This document shows positions 53,358 through 63,891 of a stretch of 64,000 nucleotides of DNA, one piece after another. The stretch is taken from assembly GCA_003584005.1 (NCBI GenBank), contig QXHL01000010.1, positions 1 to 64,000 of the forward strand, read 5' to 3'. The translations under genes and the position numbers were made by a program. The notes beneath the pieces were generated by a model, which worked only from the letters and a program-made list of their open reading frames with translations, had not been told where the DNA came from and did no database searches. How positions within the stretch are numbered: the stretch's first letter is position 1; the number at the start of each line of letters is the position of its first letter. The DNA is from Alicyclobacillaceae bacterium I2511 (lineage in GTDB: Bacteria; Bacillota; Bacilli; Alicyclobacillales; Alicyclobacillaceae).

Positions 53358-53392
53358 CCGAAAAGGATGCTGGGCAGCACAGATGTTGGACA

Positions 53393-54768
<1,376 letters not shown>

Positions 54769-56173: not shown

Positions 56174-59100
56174 ATGAGTTTGGTACAACGAGAAGAAATA
56201 ATTGCCTTTATGGAACATGACGTTTATCGCCCCTTGACCGTACACGAGCTGGAGGACGTCTTTGAGGTAACGGATGTGGCGGCCATTCAGGCGTTTGCAA
56301 ACTTGCTCCAGGGGATGGAGGACCGGGGCGACGTGGTGCGCACCCGGGCTAACCGCTATGGGATACCGGAGCGAATGAACCTCGTGGTGGGTAGTCTGCA
56401 GATGAAAGCCCGCGGCTTTGGTTTTGTCATCCCTGAGGACAGCGGGGAGACCGATGTGTACGTGTCTGCTGGGGACCTCAACGGTGCCATGAGTGGGGAC
56501 CGCGTGATGGTGCGGGTAGAAAAGTCCACCTCGGGTCCTCGGCGTGAGGGCAAGATTATTCGCGTCTTGGAGAGGTCTAACAACCGGGCCGTCGGCAAAG
56601 TGACGCTACATGGCGGGTATGCCTTTGTTAGCCCGTTGGATAAACGTCTCAACCAGGACATCTTCATTCCCGCAGAGCTCTGGCTGGACGCACACGACGG
56701 CGATGTCGTGGTGGTGGAAATTACGGAATTCCCCACATCCACCCGTGGGCCTGAGGGCAGGGTGGTGGAAGTCTTAGGAAATCCGGATGCCCCTGGGGTG
56801 GATATTCTGGCCATTGTGCGCAAATTCGACCTGCCTGAGGTTTTTCCGCCAGAGGTGCTGGCCGCCGCTGAAGCCATTCCCAGTGAATTGGCAGAGCAGG
56901 ATTACTTGAATCGGCGGGATCTGCGCGGTCTGCAGGTGGTGACCATTGACGGGGACGATGCCAAAGACCTGGATGATGCCGTCCACGTACACCTGCTGGA
57001 CAATGGCAATTACCTGCTGGGGGTGCACATTGCCGATGTCGGGTATTATGTCCCCTACGGCGGAGAACTGGACCAGGAGGCCTTTCGCCGAGGCACCAGC
57101 GTGTACCTGGTGGATAGGGTTATTCCCATGCTGCCCCAGCGGCTGTCCAATGGGATTTGCTCCTTGAATCCCCGTGTCGACCGGCTTACCCTGTCCTGTG
57201 AAATGGAGATTACCCGGACTGGAGAAATCGTCAATCACGACATTTTTCCCAGTGTTATTTGTACCGCAGAGCGCATGACCTACACGGCCGTGCGCAAGAT
57301 TCTGGTGGACAAGGACGCACAACTCCTACAGCGCTACCAGGAGCTGGTTCCCATGTTTCAAACCATGCAGGAACTGGCGTCCGTTTTACGGGAGGCAAGG
57401 ATGCGCCGGGGAGCCATTGACTTTGATTTTGACGAAGTCAAGGTGCAGGTGGATGACCTGGGCCGCCCCCTGGAGTTGTCGCCCATTCACCGCTCCGTGG
57501 CCGAGCGGTTGATTGAGGAGTTTATGTTGGCTGCCAATGAAACCGTAGCACAACACTTTCACTGGCTGAATGTGCCCTTCGTTTACCGGGTGCACGAGTC
57601 CCCAGACCTCGTGAAAATGCAGGAGTTCAATGAGTTCATCAGCAACTTCGGTTACCACGTGCGGGGCGTGGGCAACCAAATTCATCCACGGGCCCTGCAG
57701 TTTGTGCTACATCAAATTGCTGGGACTCGTGAGGAACCGGTGATTTCACATCTAATGTTGCGTTCTATGCGGCAAGCCCGCTATGCTCCGGAGAGCTTGG
57801 GCCACTTCGGTTTGGCCGCCGAGTTTTACAGCCACTTCACTTCGCCCATCCGTCGCTACCCGGATTTGACGATACACCGGATTATGCGGGAGGCCTTGGC
57901 AGGGACATTGAGTCCACATCGCCAGGAGCAATTGACCGCCTTTGTAGCAGAGGCCGCAAAACAGTCCAGCCTGCGGGAGCGCGTCGCCCAAGACGCGGAA
58001 CGAGAGACCAGTCAACTGAAGATGGTGGAGTATATGCTGGACCATCTGGGAGAAACATTTGATGGAATCATTAGCGGCGTGACCCAGTTTGGCCTGTTTG
58101 TCCACTTGGCCAACGGTGTGGAAGGCCTGATACACGTCAGTTACCTGACGGACGATTACTACGTCCTCAACGAGAAGCAGATGGCGTTGGTGGGGGAGCG
58201 CACACGCCGGGTATTTCGTTTGGGCGATCCGGTGCAAGTCGAGGTTACCAACGCCAATAGGGAGGCCCTCACCATAGATTTTGCCCTATTGGCCCATCAC
58301 CGGGAAGGAACCCTGGTGAAGCATGGAGGAGTGGAAACAGTGGAGTATGATGAAGATTTGTCGCCTAAAGAACGGCAGCGCCGCGAGCAAGATAGGACAC
58401 ACACGCCAATAAAAGGACGGGCAGTCGGTTGGCAGCGTGGCGGCAGCAACCGGGATGGCAACCCGCAGCGGGACCCATCTGGCGATGCTCGGCGCGAGCA
58501 GCGCCCACAGAGGGCTAAACTTGCCGGACCGCCCGCATTGGCCAGAGAACTAGGCCGGGCTGGACGCACCGGATCAGGCCGATTTACTAGAGACGTACGG
58601 CCCGCCGCAGCAGATGGGGGCCGTCGCCCTGGGGTAGGGGAGTCTGCGAGGGCCAACGAAGGCCGCGGAAGTTATGAAGGCCGCCGTCCCAGCAGTCAAC
58701 TCGGCAGCGCCCGACCCAGCGATGGCAGTGCCAGACGCGGGCCTGCCACAGGTCGCGGCACATACGGCGGCAGGGGCCGTGCAGGACAAAACCGAGGCTT
58801 GGAACGGGATGGCGAATACGGCCATCGCCAATACGCGAATCAGAGCCAGGTGAATGGGGATGGACAGGCCCATAGCACCGAAGCGCAGGTGCAGCAGCCA
58901 GCGAGCCCACAGCGCAACGTCGAACGAGGGCCATGGAGCGGGCGCGCCGAGAGACAAGCGAACGGCCACCGCAGCTTTGCGCGTTCAGGACAGGCTCGGG
59001 GAAGCTGGGAAGAACGGCGGCCAGAGGGACGGCGGGAGCAAGCGGCACCCGGGCAGGGCCGAGGCAGCTGGGAAGACCGCCGACCAGAGGGACGGCGGGA

Positions 59101-59701
59101 GCAGGCGGCACCCGGGCAGGGCCGGGGCAGCTGGGAAGAGCGGCGACCGGGATCGCGCCCAGCAGGCGGACCGGCAGGTGCAGGTAGGCGGCCATCGGCT
59201 GGTAGGCCGGAGCCCGGAGCAGGCCGCAGGGAATATGGCGACCACCGGTCAGAGGGACGGCGGGAGCAGGCGGCACCTGGACAGGGCCGAGGAAGCTGGG
59301 AAGAGCGGCGACCGGGATCGCGCCCAGCAGGCGGGCCGGCAGGTGCCAGCAGGCGGCCATCGGTCAGTAGGCCGGGAAGAAGTGCGGACACTCGAAGCTT
59401 TTCTGGTGCTGCAGAACAGGCAGTGTCCCGTGAGGGATTTGAACTTGTCTCGAATCGCGAGCCAGCCGGACGCAACAGACGGGAATTCAGTCACGGCCAG
59501 GGGAAACCGGCGTGGGGTCCAGCCCATCAACCGCGGAGTAAAAGTCCAACCACAGGGGCTGGTGGACGGGGAGGCCGCAGTTCTGAGGCCCGCTCTGGAC
59601 CGTCTCGCGGCACGCATCCAGGCCAGGAACGAGGCTTTGTCCCAAGCGGCAGACCCAGTGGAAAGAACAAGGGCAAACATATAGATAGACGGGCGCACTG
59701 A
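56174..59701 (+). CDS. rnr: Ribonuclease R with a ~450-residue disordered Arg/Gly-rich tail
   Basis: 1175 residues against the usual 720-800. Residues 1-~70: winged helix. ~70-215: two cold-shock domains (ARGFGFVIPEDSGETDVYVS; GYAFVSPLDKRLNQDIF). ~240-580: RNB nuclease with the acidic site IDGDDAKDLDDAVHV and SPIRRYPDLTIHR. ~620-705: S1 domain (FDGIISGVTQFGLFVHL). From ~720 on the sequence is low complexity, rich in Arg, Gly, Gln, Glu, Pro and Ser, with repeated GRREQAAPGQGRGSWEERR units. Normal RNase R ends with a short basic tail that binds RNA and SmpB/tmRNA; this one is greatly enlarged. smpB and ssrA follow. Confidence 0.93.
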   Translation: MSLVQREEIIAFMEHDVYRPLTVHELEDVFEVTDVAAIQAFANLLQGMEDRGDVVRTRANRYGIPERMNLVVGSLQMKARGFGFVIPEDSGETDVYVSAGDLNGAMSGDRVMVRVEKSTSGPRREGKIIRVLERSNNRAVGKVTLHGGYAFVSPLDKRLNQDIFIPAELWLDAHDGDVVVVEITEFPTSTRGPEGRVVEVLGNPDAPGVDILAIVRKFDLPEVFPPEVLAAAEAIPSELAEQDYLNRRDLRGLQVVTIDGDDAKDLDDAVHVHLLDNGNYLLGVHIADVGYYVPYGGELDQEAFRRGTSVYLVDRVIPMLPQRLSNGICSLNPRVDRLTLSCEMEITRTGEIVNHDIFPSVICTAERMTYTAVRKILVDKDAQLLQRYQELVPMFQTMQELASVLREARMRRGAIDFDFDEVKVQVDDLGRPLELSPIHRSVAERLIEEFMLAANETVAQHFHWLNVPFVYRVHESPDLVKMQEFNEFISNFGYHVRGVGNQIHPRALQFVLHQIAGTREEPVISHLMLRSMRQARYAPESLGHFGLAAEFYSHFTSPIRRYPDLTIHRIMREALAGTLSPHRQEQLTAFVAEAAKQSSLRERVAQDAERETSQLKMVEYMLDHLGETFDGIISGVTQFGLFVHLANGVEGLIHVSYLTDDYYVLNEKQMALVGERTRRVFRLGDPVQVEVTNANREALTIDFALLAHHREGTLVKHGGVETVEYDEDLSPKERQRREQDRTHTPIKGRAVGWQRGGSNRDGNPQRDPSGDARREQRPQRAKLAGPPALARELGRAGRTGSGRFTRDVRPAAADGGRRPGVGESARANEGRGSYEGRRPSSQLGSARPSDGSARRGPATGRGTYGGRGRAGQNRGLERDGEYGHRQYANQSQVNGDGQAHSTEAQVQQPASPQRNVERGPWSGRAERQANGHRSFARSGQARGSWEERRPEGRREQAAPGQGRGSWEDRRPEGRREQAAPGQGRGSWEERRPGSRPAGGPAGAGRRPSAGRPEPGAGRREYGDHRSEGRREQAAPGQGRGSWEERRPGSRPAGGPAGASRRPSVSRPGRSADTRSFSGAAEQAVSREGFELVSNREPAGRNRREFSHGQGKPAWGPAHQPRSKSPTTGAGGRGGRSSEARSGPSRGTHPGQERGFVPSGRPSGKNKGKHIDRRAH
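59003..59400 (+). repeat. 63 bp in-frame repeats in the rnr tail
   Basis: AGCTGGGAAGA motifs start at 59003, 59066 and 59129 (63 bp period) and again at 59294 (165 bp later). The longer segment, encoding RRPGSRPAGGPAGA, is also duplicated. Because units are multiples of 3 the frame is kept. Other frames stay open here too; these are composition artefacts. Confidence 0.9.
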
Positions 59702-59708
59702 CACGGGC

Positions 59709-59746
59709 CCTGGCAGTTGCCAAACATTGCGTTGGCAACTGCCAGG
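59709..59746. terminator. 15 bp perfect hairpin after rnr
   Basis: CCTGGCAGTTGCCAA (59709-59723) and its complement (59732-59746). No T-run follows, so it may be a pause, processing or mRNA 3'-protection site rather than a true terminator. Confidence 0.55.
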
Positions 59747-59850
59747 CGGGCATAATAAGACAACAGAAAGAGTGTACCTTTCCAACCAGTGGCCGACGGA
59801 CGCAGCAAGACGCGCCACAACCGTCGGCAACGGCCTAGGGGGTGTCCGAG

Positions 59851-60318
59851 GTGGCCAAACAAGACGACAAGGTGCTGGCGCAAAACCGCAAGGCTTATCA
59901 CGACTACTTCATTGAGGAAACCCTTGAGGCCGGCATTGTGCTCAAGGGCACCGAAATTAAGTCCATCCGCCACAGTTCCGCCAACCTGCGGGACGCCTAT
60001 GCCCGGATGGAAAATGGTGAGGTCTGGCTGGTCAACATGCACATCAGCCCCTATGAACAGGGCAATCAGTTCAACCATGAGCCCTTGCGATCCCGCAAGT
60101 TGTTGCTGCATCGCAATGAAATTCGCAAACTTATTGGCGCCGTGAAGGAAGAGGGATTCACCCTGGTGCCCACCAAACTGTATTTGCGCAACGGCTTTTG
60201 CAAGGTGGAGTTAGGGCTGGCCAAAGGCAAAAAGAACTACGACAAACGAGAAGCCACAAAAAAGCGGGATGCTCAGCGGGATATCGCTCGCGCCTTGCGG
60301 GACAGACAGCGGGTGTGA
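59851..60318 (+). CDS. smpB: SsrA-binding protein SmpB
   Basis: GTG 59851 has GGGGG 8 bases upstream; GTG 59842 is too close to it. About 155 residues: [38 protein letters not shown] and the basic tail [20 protein letters not shown] are the SmpB signatures. It binds tmRNA and places it in the stalled ribosome. The tmRNA gene lies 166 bp downstream. Confidence 0.95.
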
Positions 60319-60484: not shown

Positions 60485-60866
60485 GGGGGCGTTTTGGATT
60501 CGACGGGGATTGTTTGAGCATGCACGGCGGGTCGTGGGGCTGCGAGGCCACGTTAAAAACGCGGACCTAAATCTAACTGGCAAAGCTAAAAAAAGCTTCA
60601 CCTCATACGACAGCAACCTCGCCCTGGCTGCCTAATCGCATCCAGGCCTTCACCGGGCGTGTCGCTCGTGCACACCGTGTGATGTCAACTTAGCGGGCTA
60701 GCCCTCGGTCAGTGTTCGCGGACCCCTGGCGAAACATAGCGAACTCACCCGTTTGTGAGCGCGTGCGCCCGCGCGCAGCGGGAACATCTCAGTAGACGCA
60801 CTACACCCGTAGATGTTCATGTTACGAGGTCTTCGGACGCGGGTTCGACTCCCGTCGCCTCCACCA
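60485..60866 (+). ncRNA. ssrA: Transfer-messenger RNA (tmRNA)
   Basis: About 382 nt. The 5' end GGGGGCGTTTTGGATTCGAC and the 3' end GGGTTCGACTCCCGTCGCCTCCACCA region (T arm, acceptor, encoded CCA) form the tRNA-like domain, with one G.U pair in the acceptor stem. The mRNA-like part near 60571-60635 encodes a tag ending NLALAA and a TAA; reading from GGC gives GKAKKSFTSYDSNLALAA. It rescues stalled ribosomes with SmpB. The resume codon is my inference. Confidence 0.95.
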
Positions 60867-61660: not shown

Positions 61661-62317
61661 TTACGAGTACAGGTCTTCAACATACTTTGCATTCCGAACA
61701 CGAGCTAACGTACTTTCTTTGTTCTGGGAAAATTTCGACTGACGCCAGTCTCTGAGTGGAATGGGTTCGTCAAATGAGCCGATTTCGTCAAAGAGTACTA
61801 CGTGGTTTGGCCCATCCCACTTTCCAAGTTCATCCCAAAACCTTTTGTCTTGGGTCAATGGAACGAGTTCCGGAACCATATGATAATCTTGAGGACAAAG
61901 GTCATAGAGGATTTCTTTGACCCGGCCGTACTGTTTCACATGACGTGGAAAAGCGTTTGTTGTCCCATCATCCTCGGTCTTGGTTGTCTCGTAAAATAGC
62001 AGATATCGTGCAGGAGTGACGCGACCTAATTTTGTGTTGAACAGGTAAACCTTATGCGCGTTGGCGAGCTGCATGTACCAAGGGTGTTGGGTTACTACAA
62101 CGGCCTCTCGGACCTCTTTCACCGGCAAATCACCAACTATTTTCCGTTCAAACTTCGGCGTCACGATGCCCATCATTTTTTCAACCCTTTCTTCTAATGA
62201 CTCGGAAATAAAAGCATTCACACTCTTTGAGGACGCCTGAGCACATTCTGCAACTTGTTTGTGCAATTCAGGAGAAATTCGAAGAAGTATACGCCCACTG
62301 TAGTCCTCAACCGACAT
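61661..62317 (-). CDS. Ribbon-helix-helix (HicB-like) domain fused to an unknown C-terminal domain
   Basis: 218 residues from ATG 62317 (AAGGAGG upstream). Residues ~5-50, YSGRILLRISPELHKQVAEC and then SSKSVNAFISESLEERV, are a typical HicB-type arc/ribbon-helix-helix DNA-binding end. The remaining ~165 residues (VVTQHPWYMQLANAHKVYLF, ARYLLFYETTKTEDDG, RHVKQYGRVKEILYDL, DGPNHVVLFDEIGSFDEPIP) form an alpha/beta domain I cannot name; it has some flavour of PUA/ASCH-like folds. HicB antitoxins are normally ~110-150 aa with the DNA-binding part at one end. No HicA-like toxin is adjacent. Confidence 0.65.
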   Translation of the reverse strand: MSVEDYSGRILLRISPELHKQVAECAQASSKSVNAFISESLEERVEKMMGIVTPKFERKIVGDLPVKEVREAVVVTQHPWYMQLANAHKVYLFNTKLGRVTPARYLLFYETTKTEDDGTTNAFPRHVKQYGRVKEILYDLCPQDYHMVPELVPLTQDKRFWDELGKWDGPNHVVLFDEIGSFDEPIPLRDWRQSKFSQNKESTLARVRNAKYVEDLYS

Positions 62318-63407: not shown

Positions 63408-63615
63408 TGGACCCAGGGATTCGGACAGCAGAAAGGGGTTCGCGTAAGCTACAATTATGAGTATGAGAAAACATTACACAGCAGCGTTCAAAGCCCAAGT
63501 CGTTCAGGAGATTTTGAAGGAGGATCGAACTATCGCGCAGATATCAGCGGAGTTCGGGGTTCATCCAACTATGCTTCATAAATGGAAGAACACGGTCATC
63601 GAGAATATGACGGAC
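63408..63615 (+). mobile_element. Left end of an IS3-family element, truncated
   Basis: TGGACCCAGGGATTCGGACA at 63408 has the TG...GGACA pattern of IS3-group left ends, followed 49 bp later by orfA. Similarity to orfA stops near 63610, so the element is truncated or fused to other DNA. Confidence 0.5.
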
Positions 63616-63891
63616 CCTCATGTTAACGTGATATTGAGGGATGCGTTGCGGTATCGTTGGGCCAGCGGTCAGCCTCCGGTGCTAATTGTCTGTGACAAAC
63701 GACAGAAAGCTTCGATGGACTCGTTGATACGAAATATCTGGGGAATTCCAAGCCTAGGGGATGCGCCTTTGGTTGATGCCGCCTGGCGTAAAATTTTCCT
63801 TGGACTAACATACGTAGGGTGGATGTGGACTGATGGTTTAGAAACATTTCCAATGGATACAGTCCTCGAACGTCTTTGCAGTATCCGTTGA
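63457..63891 (+). CDS. Chimeric ORF: IS3 OrfA N terminus joined to an unrelated C-terminal segment
   Basis: Residues 1-~50 (KHYTAAFKAQVVQEILKEDR, AEFGVHPTMLHKWKN) are the helix-turn-helix of IS3-family OrfA. From ~52 on the sequence (DPHVNVILRDALRYRWASGQ, PPVLIVCDKRQKASMDSLIR, FLGLTYVGWMWTDGL) is not transposase-like and lacks the usual leucine zipper. This suggests a recombination junction or deletion fusing two genes in frame. No function can be assigned to the second part. Whether it is expressed is unknown. Confidence 0.5.
   Translation: MSMRKHYTAAFKAQVVQEILKEDRTIAQISAEFGVHPTMLHKWKNTVIENMTDPHVNVILRDALRYRWASGQPPVLIVCDKRQKASMDSLIRNIWGIPSLGDAPLVDAAWRKIFLGLTYVGWMWTDGLETFPMDTVLERLCSIR

Follow-up and report, generated by a model that had tools for sequence, protein, structure and literature searches.

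A long, basic arginine- and glycine-rich tail on the RNase R of Alicyclobacillaceae bacterium I2511

The window analysed here is a stretch of 64,000 nucleotides from Alicyclobacillaceae bacterium I2511, an uncultured relative of Alicyclobacillus that is placed with the Alicyclobacillaceae. An open reading frame at 56174-59701 encodes a complete RNase R of 1175 residues, in which all domains of the enzyme are present, and smpB and the tmRNA gene lie directly downstream. The substrates of RNase R are structured RNA, ribosomes and non-stop mRNA. The features of the locus are as follows.

56174..58288, + strand: RNase R core, residues 1-705 (HTH-like N-terminus, CSD1, CSD2, RNB, S1), from Pfam, TIGR02063 (849 bits) and alignment to 8cdu over 7-707
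58289..58405, + strand: extension after S1 predicted to be folded, residues 706-744, with beta-hairpin 712-725 and helix 731-743 (AlphaFold2 pLDDT about 72-86; YDEDL invariance)
58406..59698, + strand: R/G/E/Q/P-rich tail proper, predicted disordered, residues 745-1175 (431 aa), with pLDDT about 27-36 and no secondary structure; also from composition
58664..58996, + strand: older diverged R-G-[STP]-[YW] units (residues 831, 861, 918); 3 found, 0.03 expected in shuffles
58997..59122, + strand: two full tandem 63-bp (21-aa) units, RGSWE[ED]RRPEGRREQAAPGQG, with 6 differences, all at third codon positions
59123..59377, + strand: longer duplication, in which the 90-bp unit 59123-59212 is repeated at 59288-59377 (165 bp apart and in frame, with 87.8% identity across the 90 bp)
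59842..60318, + strand: smpB (Pfam PF01668, E 2.7e-65)
60485..60866, + strand: ssrA, tmRNA (ARAGORN; Rfam RF00023, 182.8 bits)

The protein matches TIGR02063 over residues 5-706 with a score above the curated cut-off of 598, and its Pfam domains (OB_RNB 73-131, CSD2 151-225, RNB 247-576, S1 626-701) stand in the OB/CSD-RNB-S1 order of RNase R. The normal catalytic core described in the initial annotation was thus borne out, and residues 7-707 could be aligned to B. subtilis RNase R (8cdu). Core identity amounts to 62-73% with named Alicyclobacillus and kin, and to 85% with the one available genome of the same genus, whose contig ends at residue 496 of RNase R.

The observation of an RNase R with a long R/G-rich tail is confirmed: 470 residues (58289-59698; net charge +41) follow S1 in one open frame with 0 stops in 470 codons, compared with 4-16 stops in the five other frames. 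Arginine and glycine account for 18% each, followed by A (10%), P and S (9% each), E (8%) and Q (6%). In an AlphaFold2 model, which was built from a shallow alignment of 18 sequences and has a modest mean confidence of 57.9, the first 39 post-S1 residues are predicted to fold, while residues 745-1175 are very probably disordered, their low pLDDT being consistent with disorder and not proof of it. The protein therefore carries the basic, predicted disordered stretch directly after S1 that marks K/R-rich RNase R tails, with a composition (K 2%, R 18%) that is not of the lysine-rich E. coli type. At the three codon positions, the tail has a GC content of 75/68/57, compared with 66/37/67 for the core. 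Since the excess lies at the positions that set the amino acid and not at the free third position, the composition reflects the protein, and amino-acid choice rather than mutation pressure drives the GC content of the tail. Base composition alone was rejected as an explanation. Random sequence with the base frequencies of the tail would yield R 16.7% and G 15.0%, but the calculation is circular, and such an origin is opposed by the pattern across codon positions, the low GC3 and the dN/dS values.

The hairpin-helix beside S1 is the best-conserved part of the Alicyclobacillaceae tail. It consists of a hairpin plus basic helix, YDEDLSPKERRR, and is predicted to fold onto S1. In I2511, YDEDL(SP) occupies residues 725-731 and is followed by the basic helix; YDEDL is invariant in 18/18 aligned Alicyclobacillaceae sequences and was found in 36/36 distinct tails of the family, +19 to +21 after residue 705. 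Residues E740, K741, K749 and K750 of E. coli RNase R are required for engagement of tmRNA-rescued ribosomes, and residues 750-813 are dispensable for trans-translation (PMC3949413). YDEDL follows the end of S1 by about 20 residues, close to the distance of E740/K741 and K749/K750, which is a distance from S1 and not residue homology. It may accordingly be compared, together with the basic helix, with E. coli 735-750 by analogy of position only.

Tandem repeats occupy part of the tail. At 59003-59148, TRF reported 2.3 copies of a 63-bp unit; read by codon, there are full copies beginning at 58997 and 59060, and truncated ones at 59123 and 59288, the latter two belonging to the longer unit, in front of whose second copy stands a copy of EGRREQAAPGQG (59252-59287). 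Five of the 6 differences between the full copies are silent. When the 63-bp copies and the longer duplication are pooled, 15/19 differences fall at third codon positions (P 6e-5), a count that includes two differences read from 36-nt stretches. All duplications are in frame and multiples of 3. The recent expansion by 63-bp units that had been proposed is real, although smaller than implied, for the recent repeats span about 58997-59377, or ~127 aa, and most of the tail is older sequence. The motif R-G-[STP]-[YW] occurs 7 times in the tail against 0.08 expected, and its presence upstream of the recent array indicates that growth by such units predates the visible duplications. Elsewhere in the window, a 16-bp tandem repeat of about 6.4 copies fills the gpmI-eno gap (53363-53469).

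Lack of conservation in relatives had been named as a finding that would refute the proposed scaffold role. It is not what the relatives show: a basic R/G-rich tail was found in 36/36 distinct Alicyclobacillaceae tails, a set without a same-genus member. Their length is 108-470 aa (median about 196), with most at 108-270 aa, and the I2511 tail is both the longest and the most highly charged. Long tails also occur in a sister family (428 aa in L029, 617 aa in L056), in which the sister species L026 and L027 carry repeats of their own and differ by whole repeat units at a core dS of 0.13. Genomes of group f5 have glycine-rich tails of about 220-280 aa, and the other sampled Bacilli mostly have lysine-rich tails of 39-131 aa. 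The RNase R of an Oscillospiraceae genome (L050) ends about 2 residues past the core, with smpB 5 nt downstream, and provides a tail-less natural control. The term 'lineage-specific' used previously fits only the length and composition of the tail, since basic tails as such are general in RNase R.

Several further observations were made on these proteins. Sister-family C-termini (L026, L027, L028, L029, L030, L056) are tails of variable length with a terminal motif of roughly KKRERQ-LQDIE-T-GV-VKDK, possibly a partner-binding site held on a tether. In other Bacilli (L095, L098, L100, L101, L106) a distal motif like KAFWEDLVRSKK precedes a K/R cluster. A common distal motif F-x-x-G-G-V was considered for the Alicyclobacillaceae tails and discarded, being seen in few genera and unconvincing in I2511. 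Genome G037 has two RNase R matches of equal score, separated by 31 kb (C1:119336-121453 and C1:150056-152173), reflecting either a large duplication or an assembly duplication. When the tail was used as query in the I2511 genome and in that of the same-genus relative, nothing relevant was returned, a weak match (L055) having no R/G-rich tail gene. None of 12 host DEAD-domain proteins read, several at loci stopping short of the C-terminus, had an R/G-rich end, nor did the DEAD-box helicase L076, which was read to its C-terminus; such tails are thus not apparently general to host RNA helicases.

The smpB-ssrA adjacency stressed in the initial annotation does exist, and what fails is its use as functional evidence. 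A same-strand smpB neighbour was present in 65 of the loci read, whether tails were long, short or absent, and smpB was not seen in the examined flank of several long-tailed relatives; adjacency is uncoupled from the tail across Bacilli and was set aside as an indication of function. Co-transcription of rnr and smpB is described as common in Gram-positives (PMC3534368). Between the rnr stop and smpB, at 59709-59746, lies a perfect inverted repeat of about 14-15 bp (CCTGGCAGTTGCCAA / TTGGCAACTGCCAGG). It is single-copy in the genome and has no T-run, and the region folds better than shuffles (z -2.4); it is possibly an mRNA-processing or attenuation hairpin. Downstream of ssrA, an HicB-family protein (61661-62317, - strand) and a transposase-HTH ORF (63457-63891, + strand) may represent mobile-element or toxin-antitoxin material.

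In 17 related pairs, none including I2511, dN/dS of the distal tail is 0.10-0.49, compared with 0.01-0.06 in the core. Together with the open frame and the third-position differences between repeats, this establishes that the I2511 tail is constrained at the protein level. In a set of 74 tails that includes E. coli and spans 39-617 aa, net charge ranges from +12 to +48 (median +21); its log-log slope against length is 0.21, compared with 1 for tails growing at constant composition. Tails of 39 to about 350 aa are nearly equal in net charge; acidic residues rise faster with length than basic ones (log-log slopes 1.20 vs 0.62), and length is gained mainly through near-neutral sequence. Within the 36 family tails, the standard deviation of net charge is 5.0 vs 9.4 under a null in which the tail middle was drawn from the pooled composition (3.8 vs 8.8 without I2511), a tightness that none of the null draws reached; because the statistics make no correction for shared ancestry among the tails, they overstate independence. 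Tails of genes with a higher core GC3 contain proportionally more arginine (rho 0.61), and the replacement of lysine by arginine is therefore probably a GC effect; longer tails contain proportionally less lysine. Conserved bulk properties of disordered regions, charge included, are a known theme (PMC6634968 and others). I2511 is an outlier to the charge rule, its tail middle carrying +35 in 390 residues, which is proportional charge.

This outlier bears on the possibility that a short functional basic tail is followed by hundreds of harmless residues, added by slippage in a GC-rich repeat tract and merely tolerated. Proportional charge is what uncompensated duplication predicts; moreover, length varies from 108 to 470 aa inside one family, whole repeat units separate L026 from L027, and tail dN/dS reaches about 10 times the core value. 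Such drift is nevertheless unlikely, as dN/dS is clearly below 1 in 17/17 pairs, repeat copies differ mainly at third positions, tail GC3 is below GC1 and GC2, composition is alike in 36/36 relatives, and the buffering of net charge is tighter than chance would give.

It had also been suggested that the tail could be an RNA-decay scaffold. In the form considered here, a multivalent arginine/aromatic polymer would phase-separate with RNA and recruit SmpB-tmRNA and decay enzymes, as a counterpart of RNase E bodies. The tail is long, predicted disordered and arginine-rich, its 19 aromatics are fairly evenly spaced, the R-G-[STP]-[YW] units, far above chance, form a plausible sticker pattern, and length and net charge are the highest of the family. 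However, the tail does not qualify as RG-rich in the manner of an RGG box: with 14 RG dipeptides (shuffles give 15.2) and 6 RGG/GGR (shuffles give 5.3) there is no enrichment, GR dipeptides numbering 25 vs 15.2. No charge blocks were detected either (delta 0.57 of that in shuffles; 25-aa block spread 1.82 vs 2.65), the charges being mixed more evenly than in shuffles, unlike RNase E bodies, which are attributed to arginine-rich charge blocks (PMC10412687). With smpB adjacency uncoupled from the tail and most family tails at 108-270 aa, nothing tested supports a special scaffold or condensate, and this reading is improbable, though condensation through arginine-aromatic and RNA contacts is possible and would, if true, give a decay body built on an exonuclease. 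Equally doubtful is a broader version, by which Alicyclobacillaceae RNase R would be a long multivalent RNA-capturing hub whose R-G-aromatic stickers and charge-mixed polymer, with conserved and selected net charge, concentrate structured RNA or stalled ribosomes round the exonuclease in the role of the RNase E tail. Repeat misassembly or frameshifted read-through, with a mature protein lacking such a tail, is highly improbable despite the draft assembly of 232 contigs, the repeats and the absence of a same-genus tail to set beside it (that genome breaking at residue 496), because 470 codons run without a stop, the duplications are all multiples of 3 and the same kind of tail occurs in the single-contig genomes G007 and G393.

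The favoured reading, which is reasonably probable, is that the I2511 tail is an inflated, arginine-for-lysine form of the general basic tail of RNase R, serving as a flexible tether for RNA or ribosomes. The existence, constraint, predicted disorder and charge of the tail come from the present data, to which a binding role would be added from work on E. coli and B. subtilis (PMC3949413, PMC10901742). The Alicyclobacillaceae tail would then have two parts, a short folded extension on S1 and a long flexible polymer. The basic helix beside S1 may engage the ribosome or structured RNA, as E. coli 735-750 does on tmRNA-rescued ribosomes, and the long cationic polymer, dotted with arginine and aromatic residues, may act as a non-specific tether that keeps RNA or ribosomes near the exonuclease channel. 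Selection would mainly fix total positive charge rather than sequence or length, so that length is free to drift by repeat duplication, and in I2511 duplication would have outrun charge buffering. The departure of the I2511 tail from the charge rule (+41) counts against this charge-tether reading, and the dispensability of E. coli 750-813 for trans-translation (PMC3949413) implies that most of the tail may do something else or little.

The tail is the part of RNase R least seen in structures. In nature a single conserved enzyme is found with anything from 40 to 600 tail residues at a nearly constant net charge, and this series lends itself to asking how the length and charge of disordered tails are determined. 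Neither long RNase R tails, nor RNase R condensates, nor the RNase R of Alicyclobacillus turned up as the subject of a paper in full-text searches of open-licence literature, which, given that limit, is weak evidence of novelty.

Eukaryotic RGG/RG-box proteins are high in Arg and Gly, with aromatics nearby. The I2511 tail resembles them in these respects and differs in that its RG/RGG content is at shuffle expectation and its repeated motif is R-G-[STP]-[YW]. With the C-terminal domain of Caulobacter RNase E, the basis of BR-bodies, it shares a long disordered arginine-containing extension on a ribonuclease (PMC10412687); RNase E, however, is a different enzyme with alternating charge blocks and partner sites, whereas the I2511 tail lacks such alternation, its charge being unusually well mixed, and has no known partner site. 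B. subtilis RNase R is the same enzyme, and its K/R-rich tail, which was not resolved by cryo-EM on 30S subunits (8cdu; PMC10901742), has the same position but comprises about 70 post-S1 residues versus 470. In E. coli RNase R, the lysine-rich C-terminal domain covers residues 723-813 (PMC3949413), with a net charge of about +25 in 89 aa. Both enzymes have a basic disordered tail directly after S1, and the functional E. coli segment 735-750 lies near the position of YDEDL and the basic helix in I2511. The E. coli tail is lysine-rich, about 90 aa long and without R-G-aromatic repeats, whereas that of I2511 is arginine-rich and about five times as long; in position it matches the K/R-rich tails found in E. 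coli and in other Bacilli.
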